Assembly (NCBI GenBank): GCA_009843635.1
Contig: VYDB01000006.1
Span: 1 to 48,624, forward strand
DNA from: Gammaproteobacteria bacterium
Lineage (GTDB): Bacteria; Pseudomonadota; Gammaproteobacteria; Pseudomonadales; Azotimanducaceae
Length of the DNA: 48,624 bases
Direction of reading: 5' to 3'
In this document: piece after piece, positions 38,261-42,480 of the stretch
Layout of the letters: the number at the start of each line of letters is the position of its first letter
Position numbering within the stretch: the stretch's first letter is position 1
Notes under the pieces: model-generated
Database searches by the model: none
Told to the model about the DNA's origin: nothing
What the model saw: only the letters and a program-made list of their open reading frames with translations
Made by a program: the position numbers and the translations under genes

Positions 38261-38347
38261 AGGGCGAGCCACGCCAAAGTCGAATTCCGAAAACCCGGTG
38301 GTATGATCTCCGGAGCAGCCTTTTGGAAGAGCAAGGAGGAGCTCGAG

Positions 38348-38875
38348 ATGGTTGACTTCCACGATCCCCGCGCCGAAGTGGGCGTCAAGCGGGAGCCCTA
38401 TGGGCTGGCCGTTGACCTCAAGCGCATGAACGATCCCTGCGTGGCCTTCCTGGCCAACGGCTTCCCGGATTCGGAGCGATTTCTGGAGAAGATTGCCGAC
38501 GCCATGACCCGGTTGATGCCCCAGCTCAACGTGCGCATGTTCAACAAGGGCGATGCGTCGTCGCTCGCTCCAGCGGAAATGCTGAATGAAATCAGTGACG
38601 GCTGCCACGCGGCGGTCGCCGCCTACGGGCACTGAGGCAGTTGCACCACCGGCACCGTGCGTGACGGCATTGCAATCGCCCGGCTAGGCATCCCGGCGGT
38701 GGCCTTGGTGACCGAGAAGTTCTGGCCCCAAGGCGATTTCGTGGCCAATTCCCTCGGCATGCCGGACGCCCCCCGGGTGCGCCTGCCGCATCCGGTGGCG
38801 GGCACTGGCGAGGCCAATCTCGAACGCATCGCCGACGCCATAGCGCCAGCCATCATCGAGGCATTCGTCCATTGA
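38348..38875 (+). CDS. UGSC-family selenoprotein, Sec at in-frame UGA
   Basis: A 175-residue protein read through one in-frame TGA at 38633-38635, decoded as selenocysteine 96 to give A-A-Y-G-H-U-G-S-C-T-T-G-T. The ATG at 38348 has AAGGAGGA seven bases upstream. Before the TGA the chain (DFHDPRAEVG, LAVDLKRMNDPCVAFLANG, DGCHAAVAAYGH) and after it (VRDGIAIARLGIPAVALV, EKFWPQGDFVANSLGMPD, VRLPHPVAGTGEANL) form one continuous domain of the UGSC selenoprotein family known from metagenomes; Cys homologues exist. Sec and Cys99 form a U-x-x-C redox motif. A SECIS-like hairpin follows the TGA. The function is unknown; a redox reaction on an organic substrate is the inference. A plain stop codon would truncate the protein just before its signature motif. 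Confidence 0.93.
38641..38675 (+). promoter_or_regulatory. bacterial SECIS hairpin after UGA 38633
   Basis: Read as RNA, bases 641-645 (UUGCA) pair with 671-675 (UGCAA), 649-651 (CCG) with 665-667 (CGG), and 653-655 (CAC) with 661-663 (GUG), with small internal loops and one mismatch between, and apical loop CGUGC (656-660). The loop begins 20 bases after the UGA, and its second base is G; both fit the bacterial SECIS model (loop start 16-37 bases after UGA, G among the first two loop bases). Folding energy was not computed. Confidence 0.7.
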
Positions 38876-39954
38876 CGGGCATGCTGTCAGCCGCCAACGA
38901 GGCGGCGGCGCTTGAACGGCTGCACGAACTCAAGTGCACCGACGGCCTGCCCGTGGTGGTGCCGACCGAGGCGCGGGTGGCGCGCATGGCCCTGGCGAGC
39001 GGCTTGGACCGGGACTTGGCGCTCGGCGAGATGGGACCGGGCAAGGGCATTGCGACGGTGGAGAAGGTCGCCGTCGCCGCGGTCATGGCGGGCTGCTTGC
39101 CGGATTACATGCCGTTGGTCATCGCCTCGGTCAAGGCGGTGCTCGATCCGCGCTTCGATCTCACAGAGATGCAGGCGACCACCCACTGCACCGCGCCCCT
39201 GATCCTGGTCAACGGTCCGGCGCGGCACGGCATCGGCCCCATCGCCTGCGGCTTCGGCGCCTTGGGCCCCGGCCACCGCGCCAACGCCAGCATTGGGCGC
39301 GCCCTGCGCCTGGCGATGATCAACATCGGCGGCGGCCGCCCCGGTGAATCCGACATGGCGCTCCTGGGCCATCCCGGCAAGTTCACCTACTGCCTAGGGG
39401 AGGACGAGGAGGCCAGCCCCTTTTCGCCCCTGCACGTGGATCTCGGCTTCGCTCCCGAGGACAGCACGGTGACGGTGATTGGCGCCGAGGCACCCCACTC
39501 GGTGTTGTTCAGCGGAGACGGCGACGACCCCGAGAGCGCCAACCGGCTGCTCGGATGCCTGGCCATCGGTCTGGCCAACATCGCCACCAACAACGCGGTG
39601 CTGACCGGCGGCGCGGCCATGGTGCTGCTCAATCCCGAACACGCCGCGGTGCTGGCGGATGCCGGCCTCAACCGGCGCGGCATCGCCGAACGCCTGCACG
39701 GCCTGTGCGCCCATTCGCCGGACGAACTCGCCCGGTACGCTGCCGCCTTCGCGTCCCGGCGGACCGAGTCCGCAGCCGACAGCCGCAGAAGCTGCTTCGC
39801 CAGCCCTGACGACATCCTGATTGCGGTGGCTGGCGGCACCGGTCTCTACTCCATGGTCATGCCCACTTGGTGCGCCGGTCCGCACCGCAATCGGGCCGTC
39901 AGCGTCCAAGTGGAGATGGCCCAGTTTTGCGAAATTCCAACGGAAAACCCATGA
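38872..39954 (+). CDS. conserved uncharacterised partner of UGSC protein
   Basis: A 360-residue protein translated from TTG at 38872, overlapping the selenoprotein stop (TTGA); ATG at 38881 is an alternative. It starts with a conserved stretch LKCTDGLPVVVPTEARVARM and continues with GPGKGIATVEKVAVAAVMAG, FDLTEMQATTHCTAPLILVNG, GALGPGHRANASIGRALRL, MALLGHPGKFTYCLGEDEEAS and GFAPEDSTVTV. From memory this family recurs in other genomes near UGSC-type proteins; I know of no biochemical assignment. It has no signal peptide or membrane segment. Coupling by overlap implies the two products are needed together, perhaps as one enzyme. Confidence 0.8.
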   Translation: MTGMLSAANEAAALERLHELKCTDGLPVVVPTEARVARMALASGLDRDLALGEMGPGKGIATVEKVAVAAVMAGCLPDYMPLVIASVKAVLDPRFDLTEMQATTHCTAPLILVNGPARHGIGPIACGFGALGPGHRANASIGRALRLAMINIGGGRPGESDMALLGHPGKFTYCLGEDEEASPFSPLHVDLGFAPEDSTVTVIGAEAPHSVLFSGDGDDPESANRLLGCLAIGLANIATNNAVLTGGAAMVLLNPEHAAVLADAGLNRRGIAERLHGLCAHSPDELARYAAAFASRRTESAADSRRSCFASPDDILIAVAGGTGLYSMVMPTWCAGPHRNRAVSVQVEMAQFCEIPTENP

Positions 39955-39964
39955 CGGCCGTCCC

Positions 39965-41287
39965 ATGAGCAGCGCTTACGACAGCCTCCGCGAAAAGGCA
40001 GATGGCATCCGCGCCTCCCAGCAGCAAAGCCGCCGCCGCCAACGCATCCCCGTCGATCTGAATCTCGATCCCAGGGACATTCCGCTCGATACGCTCAACG
40101 TCGCCAACCCGGAGCTGTTCAAGCACGACGCCTTCGGGCCCTACTTCGCCCGCCTGCGCGCTGAGGCGCCAGTGCACTACTGCCGAGACAGCCAGTACGG
40201 CCCCTATTGGTCGATTACCCGCTACCGGGACATCGTCGCCATCGAGAAGGCGCACGGCATCTTCTCATCGGGCTACCACTTCGGGGGCGTCACCATCCAG
40301 GGCACACCCCAGGCGGCGTCGGAGACCCCGATGTTCATCGAGATGGATCCCCCAAAACACGACGTCCAGCGCAAGGCCGTGGCACCGCGCTTCACCCAAC
40401 GCAGCCTCATGGAGCTTGAAACCCTGATCCGAGGGCGGGCTGCGGACATCCTCGACGGCCTGCCCCGCAACGAGACCTTCGACTGGGTGAGCCAGGTCTC
40501 GGTCGAGCTGACGGGACGCATGCTGGCGAGCTTGTTTGGCCTGCCCCAGGAAGAGCGCCATCGGTTGATCCGCTGGTCCAACATCTTCAGCAACGGCGAC
40601 AATCCTGAACTGGTGGCGTCCACCGGCGATTACTACGAGGCGCTCGCCGAGTGCGGCGACTACTTCCAAGCAGTTTGGGCGGACCGCAAGCGACAGGCGC
40701 CCAGCGGCGACCTGATCTCGATGCTGGCCCACGGCAGCCAGACTGCCGACATCGGACCCAAGGAACTGCTCGGCAACGTGGTGCTGCTGCTGGTCGGCGG
40801 CAACGACACCACGCGCAACTCCATCAGCGGCGGCGTGCTGGCGCTGAACGAAAACCCCGCCGAGTACGCCAAGCTGCGCCGCGACCCCGGCCTCATTCCC
40901 AAGATGGTGCCGGAGATCATCCGCTGGCAGACGCCCCTGACCAACATGCGACGCACGGCGATCCGGGACGTGGTGTTTGGCGGGCAGACCATCCGCGCCA
41001 TGGACACGGTCATCCTCTGGTACATTTCCGGCAACCGTGACGAGGATGCCATCGACCGGGCCAGCGAGTTCATCATCGACCGACCACGGCCTAGGGAGCA
41101 CCTGTCGTTCGGCTTCGGCATCCACCGCTGCCTCGGCAACCGGCTGGCCGAAATGCAGTTGCGGGTGCTTTGGGAGGAGATCATGCGACGCTGCCCGAAG
41201 ATCGAAGTGACCGGACCGCCCGAGCGGGCCAACTCGGTGCTGTTCCGAGCCATTAACCGGTTGCCGGTGCGCATAAACGAGGCCTGA
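39965..41287 (+). CDS. cytochrome P450, CYP153-like
   Basis: A 440-residue bacterial P450. The haem-binding motif FGFGIHRCLGNRLAEMQ holds axial Cys389; the oxygen-activating helix reads LLLVGGNDTTRNSI; the ExxR pair is EIIRW and related text. Phrases such as FGPYFARLRAEAPVHY, MDPPKHDVQR, GGNDTTRNS and MVPEIIRWQTPL match CYP153 alkane/fatty-acid terminal hydroxylases from memory. It begins 10 bases after the partner gene and overlaps the next P450 by one base. CYP153 enzymes need a ferredoxin and a ferredoxin reductase; neither is nearby. Confidence 0.9.
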   Translation: MSSAYDSLREKADGIRASQQQSRRRQRIPVDLNLDPRDIPLDTLNVANPELFKHDAFGPYFARLRAEAPVHYCRDSQYGPYWSITRYRDIVAIEKAHGIFSSGYHFGGVTIQGTPQAASETPMFIEMDPPKHDVQRKAVAPRFTQRSLMELETLIRGRAADILDGLPRNETFDWVSQVSVELTGRMLASLFGLPQEERHRLIRWSNIFSNGDNPELVASTGDYYEALAECGDYFQAVWADRKRQAPSGDLISMLAHGSQTADIGPKELLGNVVLLLVGGNDTTRNSISGGVLALNENPAEYAKLRRDPGLIPKMVPEIIRWQTPLTNMRRTAIRDVVFGGQTIRAMDTVILWYISGNRDEDAIDRASEFIIDRPRPREHLSFGFGIHRCLGNRLAEMQLRVLWEEIMRRCPKIEVTGPPERANSVLFRAINRLPVRINEA

Positions 41288-42480
41288 TGGACGTCGGGAG
41301 CTTCGATCTCGCTGACCCGCCACCCGGCTTCGCCGACGATCCGTTTCCCTGGTACGCCGCCCTGCAGGCACGTTCCCCCGTTCACGGCTTGGGCGACGGC
41401 TCCTGGCTGCTCACCCGGCATGCGGACTGCGCCGCCGTGTACCGCGACGCCCGGTTCAGTTCCGACAAGACCGAGCTGTTCCGGCCCAAGTTCGGCAACT
41501 CACCGCTCTATGAACACCACACCACCAGCTTGGTGTTCAATGATCCGCCCTACCACACACGGGTGCGGCGGACCATCGCCGAGGCCTTGAAGCCGAAGAA
41601 CATCCAGCCCGTGGCGCGGCGATTGGAAGCCTTCGTGGCCGAACGATTGGCCGAATTGCGCCACCGGCGCGAGTGCGACCTGATCGAGCATTTCGCCGCC
41701 GCCGTGCCCGTGGAGATCATCTGCACCCTGCTCTCGGTGCCCGCCTCGGAACGCGGCCCCTTGCGGCGCTGGTCGCTGGCCATTCTCGGCGCCCTCGAGC
41801 CGTCCATCGACGCCGCCGCCCAATGCCGAGGCAATGCCGCCGTGCGGGAATTCCTAGCCTACCTGGGCGAACTCATCCGCCATCGCCGCCAGCATCCGCC
41901 CAAGGACCAAACCGGCGTGCTGCAATCGCTCATTGACCAAACGCGGGAAGGCGAACTCTCGGAACCCGAATTGCTGCACAACTGCATCTTTCTGCTCAAC
42001 GCTGGGCACGAGACCACCACCAACCTGATCGGCAACGGCATCCACATGCTCATCACCCATCCGGACAGCGCCCGCCAACTGCGCCGGGAACCTGGGCTGA
42101 TCCGTTCCGCGGTGGAGGAGGCGCTGCGCTACCAAAGCCCCAACCAACTCGGCAATCGAGTGGCTGCCGCATCCGTCGAAGTGGCGGGGCACCGCTTTCA
42201 GGCCGGCGACCAAATCACGCTGGGCATTGGCGCCGCCAACCGGGACGAGCGGGAGTTTCCGGACCCCCACCGCTTCGCCATCGACCGCTCCCCGAACCGG
42301 CATCTCGCCTTCGCCGCCGGGTCCCACACCTGCGCCGGAAACTCCCTGGCCCGCCTTGAAGGCCGCATCGCCATCGGCGGCTTCGTCAAGGCGTTCGAGG
42401 GCGCGGAACTGGCCGAAACGCCCCGCTACCAGCAGCGGCTGCGCTTTCGTGGCCTCGAATCCCTGCGGGTGCGGCTGTGA
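41287..42480 (+). CDS. cytochrome P450, second type
   Basis: A 397-residue P450 not of the CYP153 group. The haem motif is [18 protein letters not shown] with axial Cys349, the I-helix is [17 protein letters not shown] and the ExxR glutamate is in [10 protein letters not shown]. This is the soluble class I actinobacterial/proteobacterial style (like CYP107 relatives), which includes enzymes of many natural-product and catabolic pathways. The start overlaps the preceding stop (TGATG). The end overlaps hmgA (GTGA), so the P450s and hmgA are co-translated. Confidence 0.88.

Follow-up and report, generated by a model that had tools for sequence, protein, structure and literature searches.

An in-frame TGA in a UGSC-family gene and its conserved partner gene: an almost certain selenoprotein with an apparent kinship to GrdB and PrdB

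The window analysed here is a stretch of 48,624 nucleotides, contig VYDB01000006.1 of assembly GCA_009843635.1, from a gammaproteobacterium of the family Azotimanducaceae. The genome to which this contig belongs comprises 4.49 Mb in 152 contigs and is 96% complete. We focus on a gene whose reading frame contains a TGA codon and on the gene that follows it. The features are as follows.

38333..38339, + strand: Shine-Dalgarno sequence AAGGAGG, 8 nt 5' of ATG 38348, identified by sequence
38348..38875, + strand: UGSC-family gene, almost certainly encoding a selenoprotein; ATG 38348, 175 codons including Sec96, Pfam PF24696 at 140.8 bits
38633..38635, + strand: TGA almost certainly decoded as selenocysteine, residue 96 and first letter of U-G-S-C, from the comparison of 76 UGSC genes
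38649..38667, + strand: SECIS-type hairpin, stem 38649-38655 / 38661-38667 with one G.A mismatch, loop CGUGC at 38656-38660
38873-38875, + strand: TGA, stop codon of the UGSC gene
38872..39954, + strand: conserved partner ORF, 360 aa from TTG 38872 (overlapping the UGSC stop), or starting from ATG 38881
39965-42480: two adjacent cytochrome P450 genes, directly 3' of the partner

Between its start and its stop, the UGSC gene contains a single in-frame TGA, at 38633-38635. When this codon is read as selenocysteine (Sec), the translation is a product of 175 residues containing ...AAYGH-U-G-S-C-TTG..., in which the Sec/Cys-Gly-Ser-Cys motif of the UGSC family is present. The first-pass annotation of this DNA had proposed a lone TGA breaking a continuous domain, a U-G-S-C signature once the TGA is taken as Sec, a strong ribosome-binding site and a normal stop at 38873, and each of these was borne out. 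In particular, Pfam PF24696 (UGSC) matches the read-through product over its full length at 140.8 bits against a cut-off of 25, and the two halves searched separately score 36.8 and 66.3 bits, both above the cut-off. It had also predicted that automatic annotation would leave a 95-residue stub and an orphan fragment; mechanical ORF calling indeed splits the gene into 38303-38635 and 38657-38875 (72 aa), where the 5' ORF has 110 aa from an upstream ATG at 38303, or 95 aa from 38348.

The family assignment made at that stage is upheld by Pfam, whereas the NCBIfam equivalog model for UGSC, NF041046, gives the window protein 100 bits, under its cut-off of 125. Because of this score, we regard the window protein as belonging to a divergent branch of UGSC, although it has the length of the family (PF24696, NF041046), shares its Sec-Gly-Ser-Cys and matches it end to end. 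Within its branch, it shares 47-67% identity with the Sec proteins and 33-44% with four Cys relatives; the remaining rows of the alignment are 20-30% identical to it. The large alignments used in this work include 68 of the 76 UGSC rows and 71 of the 81 partner rows. A weak NCBIfam match of the window protein to MftE (13.5 bits) was dismissed as chance. In addition, the UGSC profile has four weak matches of 20-24 bits (G159:C7:279206-279346, G222:C1:955939-956055, L045 and L046), which cover profile positions 55-104 and lie inside stop-free frames of about 500-555 aa. Overall, the window gene is almost certainly a genuine member of UGSC, a known and uncharacterised selenoprotein family.

The TGA was compared across two sets of relatives. 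The first set consists of 244 genomes of the order, which were searched with profiles for UGSC and selB, matches over the cut-off being counted. UGSC is found in 21 of these genomes, in 28 copies; 27 copies have exactly one TGA, and the other, in genome G052, has Cys (TGT). SelB is found in 33 of the 244 genomes, including 20 of the 20 with the TGA form, and is not over the cut-off in G052, an assembly that is 75% complete. The association between UGSC-TGA and selB has a Fisher p of 5.5e-21, uncorrected for kinship among the genomes.

The second set was obtained by searching a collection of named genomes with the partner ORF as the sole query and keeping the best 80 of 568 confirmed relatives, of which 75 loci have a UGSC match. 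Together with the window, these give 76 UGSC genes, each represented by the best match per locus and by the matched stretch only. Exactly one in-frame TGA is present in 69 of them, none in seven, and two or more in none. All 69 TGAs fall at the TGA codon of the window, followed by GSC in 67 genes, by GGC in one and by GSS in one; the remaining seven genes have Cys (TGT or TGC) at this codon. UGA where homologues have Cys, the pattern by which a bacterial selenoprotein is recognised, is therefore present (69 TGA and seven Cys of 76).

In the named set, selB was checked in the genomes of all seven Cys forms, of 31 out of 68 named loci with the TGA form and of the five loci without UGSC. It is over the cut-off in 0/7, 29/31 and 4/5 of these, respectively (Fisher p 2.9e-6 for 29/31 against 0/7), where six of the 29 matches, all actinobacterial, span only about the first 340 of the 581 model positions. 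Of the two exceptions with TGA, G280 has selB in pieces across two contigs, and G277 has no clear selB in its 1.8 Mb assembly. Note that, since the completeness of the named genomes is not given, single absences of selB are weak evidence, while the overall pattern is not. The first-pass annotation had named a stop at this position in all homologues as a finding that would speak against it; instead, homologues continue past the TGA, or have Cys there where selB was not found.

It had likewise made its reading depend on selenocysteine machinery, and selA, selB, tRNA-Sec (selC) and selD are all detected in the genome of the window, selD as a fusion. The tRNA-Sec scores 75.2 bits and has a TCA anticodon according to ARAGORN; selB (419.7 bits) and selA (505 bits) are clustered with it on the same contig and the same strand. 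A SelD match of 255 bits is the sole SelD candidate over the cut-off in this genome. It lies at L021:307-2532 (G000:C129), in a 742-residue protein in which an N-terminal oxidoreductase is fused to SelD, and which also matches the NCBIfam model fusion_not_SelD ('oxidoreductase/SelD-related fusion protein'), under that model's cut-off. A second UGSC gene with one TGA is present on contig C58, and this copy clears the NF041046 cut-off at 160.9 bits. The same genome contains two PrdB-like genes, at G000:C62:24380-24754 (L136) and G000:C91:32080-32460 (L141), in which the PF07355 match stops two residues before an in-frame TGA that is followed by related sequence. Judging from these sequences, which are below the cut-off of TIGR04483, they are probably two further selenoproteins.

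A selenocysteine codon of this type should be followed by a SECIS-type hairpin. In the window, the TGA is separated by 13 nt from the stem and by 20 nt from the loop of the hairpin listed above. Folding of the single sequence gives this region a stability no better than that of shuffles (z -0.87 to +1.41), and an Rfam scan of the window yielded nothing at gathering scores. Because single-sequence folding 3' of the TGA was not significant, a comparative test was needed. For this test, the Sec genes were divided into 25 of the window branch and 42 others; the sets omit L087 (GGC after the TGA) and L115 (GSS), since the script required G-[STNAP]-C.

In the window branch, 149 of the 150 pair cells are standard pairs, against 14-36% when the partners are slid, and at one pair four distinct rows have U-A in place of C-G. 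Three of the five covariation measures beat shuffles; the count of double-change pairs and the count of pair types do not. The other 42 Sec genes share an 8-pair hairpin that begins three positions earlier, in which 87.8% of the cells are paired, against 18-54% when slid, and five pairs are altered on both sides. As a control, other in-frame stretches of the same Sec genes pair in 40%. In the seven Cys genes, the window-branch pairs are present in 21/42 cells and those of the other hairpin in 32/56, and two of these genes, L117 (5/5) and L081 (4/5), retain most of the core pairs.

Codon usage is also constrained here. Codons +6 to +10 (GGC ACC GTG CGT GAC) show no synonymous change in the 25 window-branch Sec genes, the lone exception to identity being one gene with Ser for Arg. 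In the same genes, the commonest codon has a mean share of 84% at nine conserved codons from +1 to +13, compared with 54% at 29 conserved codons elsewhere (p 3.5e-4); the corresponding test in the rest of the family is uninformative (four versus two codons, p 0.4). These comparisons support a conserved, covarying hairpin 3' of the TGA, as expected of a SECIS element, and with it the Sec reading. SelB carrying Sec-tRNA(Sec) would bind the hairpin just 3' of UGA 38633-38635 and insert Sec96.

Two readings without selenocysteine have to be weighed against these data. If the TGA were a chance product of a pseudogene or a sequencing error, the ordinary folding energy of the single-sequence hairpin would be no surprise; what we observe is a TGA at one fixed codon in 69 of 76 genes, with no second one in the matched stretch, a frame that is intact on either side, a hairpin that covaries, and Cys in seven genes whose genomes have no selB over the cut-off. 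We give this explanation practically no credence. Generic read-through that places some other amino acid at the codon is inseparable from Sec insertion by sequence alone, and it is hardly more credible, since the genome has the Sec machinery, selB accompanies the TGA form in 20/20 genomes of the order, and Cys replaces the TGA in genomes where selB was not found. Decoding of the in-frame TGA as selenocysteine is almost certain.

The ORF that follows the UGSC gene has no Pfam or NCBIfam family, and no convincing match was obtained for any of 71 relatives. It is nevertheless tightly coupled to UGSC. In the order, all 27 fetched loci (of 28 copies) have the partner no more than 1.5 kb away from UGSC. 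In the 75 UGSC-bearing loci among the best 80 of 568, the two matches are at most 300 nt apart in 69, with UGSC first in 55 loci and the partner first in 20. In seven of the 75 (L084, L087, L105, L106, L111, L119 and L126), the two are fused in a single ORF, since there is no stop between both matches in one frame, and L047, a locus of the order, is a further fusion; L081 was ruled out as a fusion because a TGA lies between its UGSC and partner matches. The record titles of the best 80 partner loci include Pseudomonadota, Acidimicrobiia, Chloroflexi, Rokubacteria, Acidobacteria and others. A UGSC match is missing from five of these 80: in L088 and L121 the contig ends beside the partner, and L099 and L127, with at least 3 kb on both sides, look like real exceptions to the pairing. 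UGSC and its partner do not always form one operon, because in L024 they are adjacent on opposite strands.

The partner of the second UGSC copy in the window's genome has an AhpC-TSA/Redoxin domain at its N-terminus (31.8 bits, cut-off 26). Two cysteines of the partner are nearly invariant, C75 in 70/71 and C174 in 67/71 rows. The AlphaFold2 model of the partner has a pLDDT of 93; its best Foldseek match, a chain of a two-subunit fumarate hydratase (E 7.9e-4), was set aside with a TM of 0.27 and an rmsd of 15 Å, and a sequence search of the PDB gave no match. Thirteen actinobacterial loci (L059-L063, L065-L068, L070, L071, L073 and L075), the titles of which are mostly Acidimicrobiia, carry a UGSC-partner pair of the window type. 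Their hairpin is nearly the same as that of the Pseudomonadales, and the UGSC identity is 50-58% in the ten of the 13 loci that are present in the alignment; transfer of the pair between phyla is possible. In metagenomic reads, UGSC has been described as fused to a domain called Unknown_1 (Zhang and Gladyshev 2008, PMC2398784), and the partner is probably this domain. In contrast to the fusion described there, the partner is here next to UGSC almost without exception and is in most loci encoded by a gene of its own.

Profile comparison links UGSC to GrdB and PrdB, which are selenoprotein B of glycine reductase and of D-proline reductase, respectively (PF07355, TIGR01918, TIGR04483). Direct searches with the window protein give no match to PF07355 (GRDB) among matches listed up to E 1, nor to the GrdB/PrdB models of NCBIfam up to E 0.1. 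PF07355 has 14 matches in eight genomes of the order. Some of these, in G226, are genuine GrdB genes, and the others are short and PrdB-like, including two from the genome of the window. Twelve of the 14 genes were read through, and in all 12 the frame runs into a TGA with related sequence beyond it; in 11 of them the Pfam match stops no more than three residues from this TGA. Two GrdB genes have U-G-T-C-T at the TGA and P-H-P or P-Y-P further 3'.

When the 68 UGSC rows were aligned with these 12 rows by hhalign, the probability was 91.7% (P 7.6e-7, score 46.9), and the Sec residues as well as the PHP motifs fell in the same columns. Column shuffling, repeated 100 times, never gave more than 19.5, and the reversed profile scored 17.0; once seven motif residues were masked in both profiles, the score was 38.5, with 18.0 as the maximum of 100 shuffles. 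The probability is 90.5% with the two GrdB rows and 23% (P 9e-4) with the PrdB-like rows when each set is used by itself, so that the link rests mainly on GrdB. The UGSC alignment retains Cys99 in 67/68 rows; in the PHP motif, H148 is retained in 62/68 and P149 in 66/68. UGSC thus looks like a distant cousin of the glycine and proline reductase selenoproteins, as far as profiles can tell: the Sec is equivalent, in U-G-S-C-T here and in U-G-T-C-T in GrdB, and the P-H-P motif 3' of Sec is common to both, whereas UGSC is without the N-terminal half of GrdB. UGSC is also accompanied by a different protein, which gave no profile match to the same GrdB/PrdB-like rows in an hhalign control (P 0.55). 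GrdE and PrdA of glycine and proline reductase use pyruvoyl chemistry.

The AlphaFold2 model of UGSC (pLDDT 95.5) contains five strands, each followed by a helix, and places Sec96 between strand 88-94 and helix 97-112. Foldseek returned weak matches to mixed alpha/beta folds with TM up to 0.54, including flavodoxin-like flavoproteins, TIR domains and GTPases, and none of the 50 matches listed is described as thioredoxin. Sequence searches of the PDB with the UGSC and GrdB/PrdB profiles gave no convincing relatives; the two rows obtained for UGSC are at chance level. The model predicts a flavodoxin-like fold, in place of the thioredoxin-like one that the literature suggests for UGSC-containing proteins (PMC2398784).

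The wider surroundings were also considered. In the window, the UGSC gene is preceded by an amidohydrolase, a methyltransferase and an SDR, and further downstream lie the two P450s and a nitronate-monooxygenase-like gene. When 13 neighbour ORFs of the window were compared with the 80 named loci at a threshold of 1e-8, the SDR was matched in 12/80 loci (26-34% identity) and the P450s, which are not conserved neighbours, in five and six of 80 (26-30% identity); the other ORFs gave nothing at this threshold. Because only the SDR and the P450s matched anything, the neighbours in the window were not used for function. Among 75 same-strand neighbour ORFs scanned with Pfam, some of which may be spurious, ten are TctC uptake receptors, fewer are MaoC, aldo/keto reductase or CoA-transferase, and the remainder are mixed; the TctC neighbours are only a hint to function.

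Sequence comparison supports Sec insertion, coupling to the partner and homology of the Sec domain. Our main reading, to which we assign a probability of roughly 0.6 as a whole, is that UGSC is a genuine selenoprotein, a relative of the Sec domain of GrdB and PrdB, and part of one Sec-dependent enzyme together with its partner. UGSC would be an independent protein related to the domain that carries Sec in these selenoprotein-B subunits, and would most likely form one enzyme with the product of the next ORF. The partner may hold and position a small substrate, which the Sec selenolate at the N-terminal tip of the helix would attack as a nucleophile. A selenenyl-sulphide would then form with Cys99 as the resolving residue and would be re-reduced by a thioredoxin-type donor; the partner that belongs to the second copy has such a domain fused to it. 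The enzyme would likely depend on a dithiol to reduce small organic compounds, or to cleave them reductively, in the course of their catabolism, and the best mechanism that we can infer for the pair is that of a two-part Sec-dependent thiol reductase.

Two other views accept the selenoprotein and differ in what it does. The U-x-x-C of UGSC resembles the CxxC of thioredoxin, and the protein might be a thioredoxin-like oxidoreductase whose neighbour is incidental or a redox substrate. We consider this improbable: the confident model with its five strand-helix units and the 50 listed matches, weak and of mixed alpha/beta folds, do not point to thioredoxin, the profile homology to GrdB/PrdB survives motif masking, and a partner near UGSC in 27/27 fetched loci of the order is at odds with an incidental neighbour. 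A GrdB/PrdB-superfamily selenoprotein with a role other than reductive cleavage is less easily set aside, and we rate it as unlikely rather than improbable. Here the selenol would detoxify, or bind metals or electrophiles, with the partner as carrier or sensor; the neighbour genes are varied, several record titles refer to marine, groundwater or soil samples, and PrdB-like genes with an in-frame TGA are also present in the window's genome, all of which would suit such a role. Against it stands the retention, as in GrdB, of Cys99, H148 and P149 in 67, 62 and 66 of the 68 rows. The conservation of Cys99 and of the PHP motif would be easier to reconcile with redox chemistry on a bound substrate than with the binding of metals.

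The GOS metagenome contained 255 Sec and 21 Cys forms of UGSC, one of the major families of selenoproteins in aquatic metagenomes, marine as well as nonmarine (PMC2398784), and a 2026 review lists the UGSC-containing protein with families of largely uncharacterised function (PMC13188914). In the passages of the open literature that we consulted, we found neither a placement of UGSC with GrdB/PrdB nor a description of the partner as a constant neighbour. To the first-pass annotation, the present analysis adds the conserved partner ORF, the other UGSC gene of this genome and the relation of UGSC to GrdB/PrdB. More tentatively, and at somewhat less than even odds, UGSC and its partner may constitute a distinct class of two-component reductases that depend on Sec, form a branch within the glycine/D-proline reductase superfamily and are widespread across several phyla, with thioredoxin-type donors sometimes fused and catabolic or uptake genes often adjoining. 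The superfamily assignment and the near-constant partner gene together make UGSC a testable enzyme problem.
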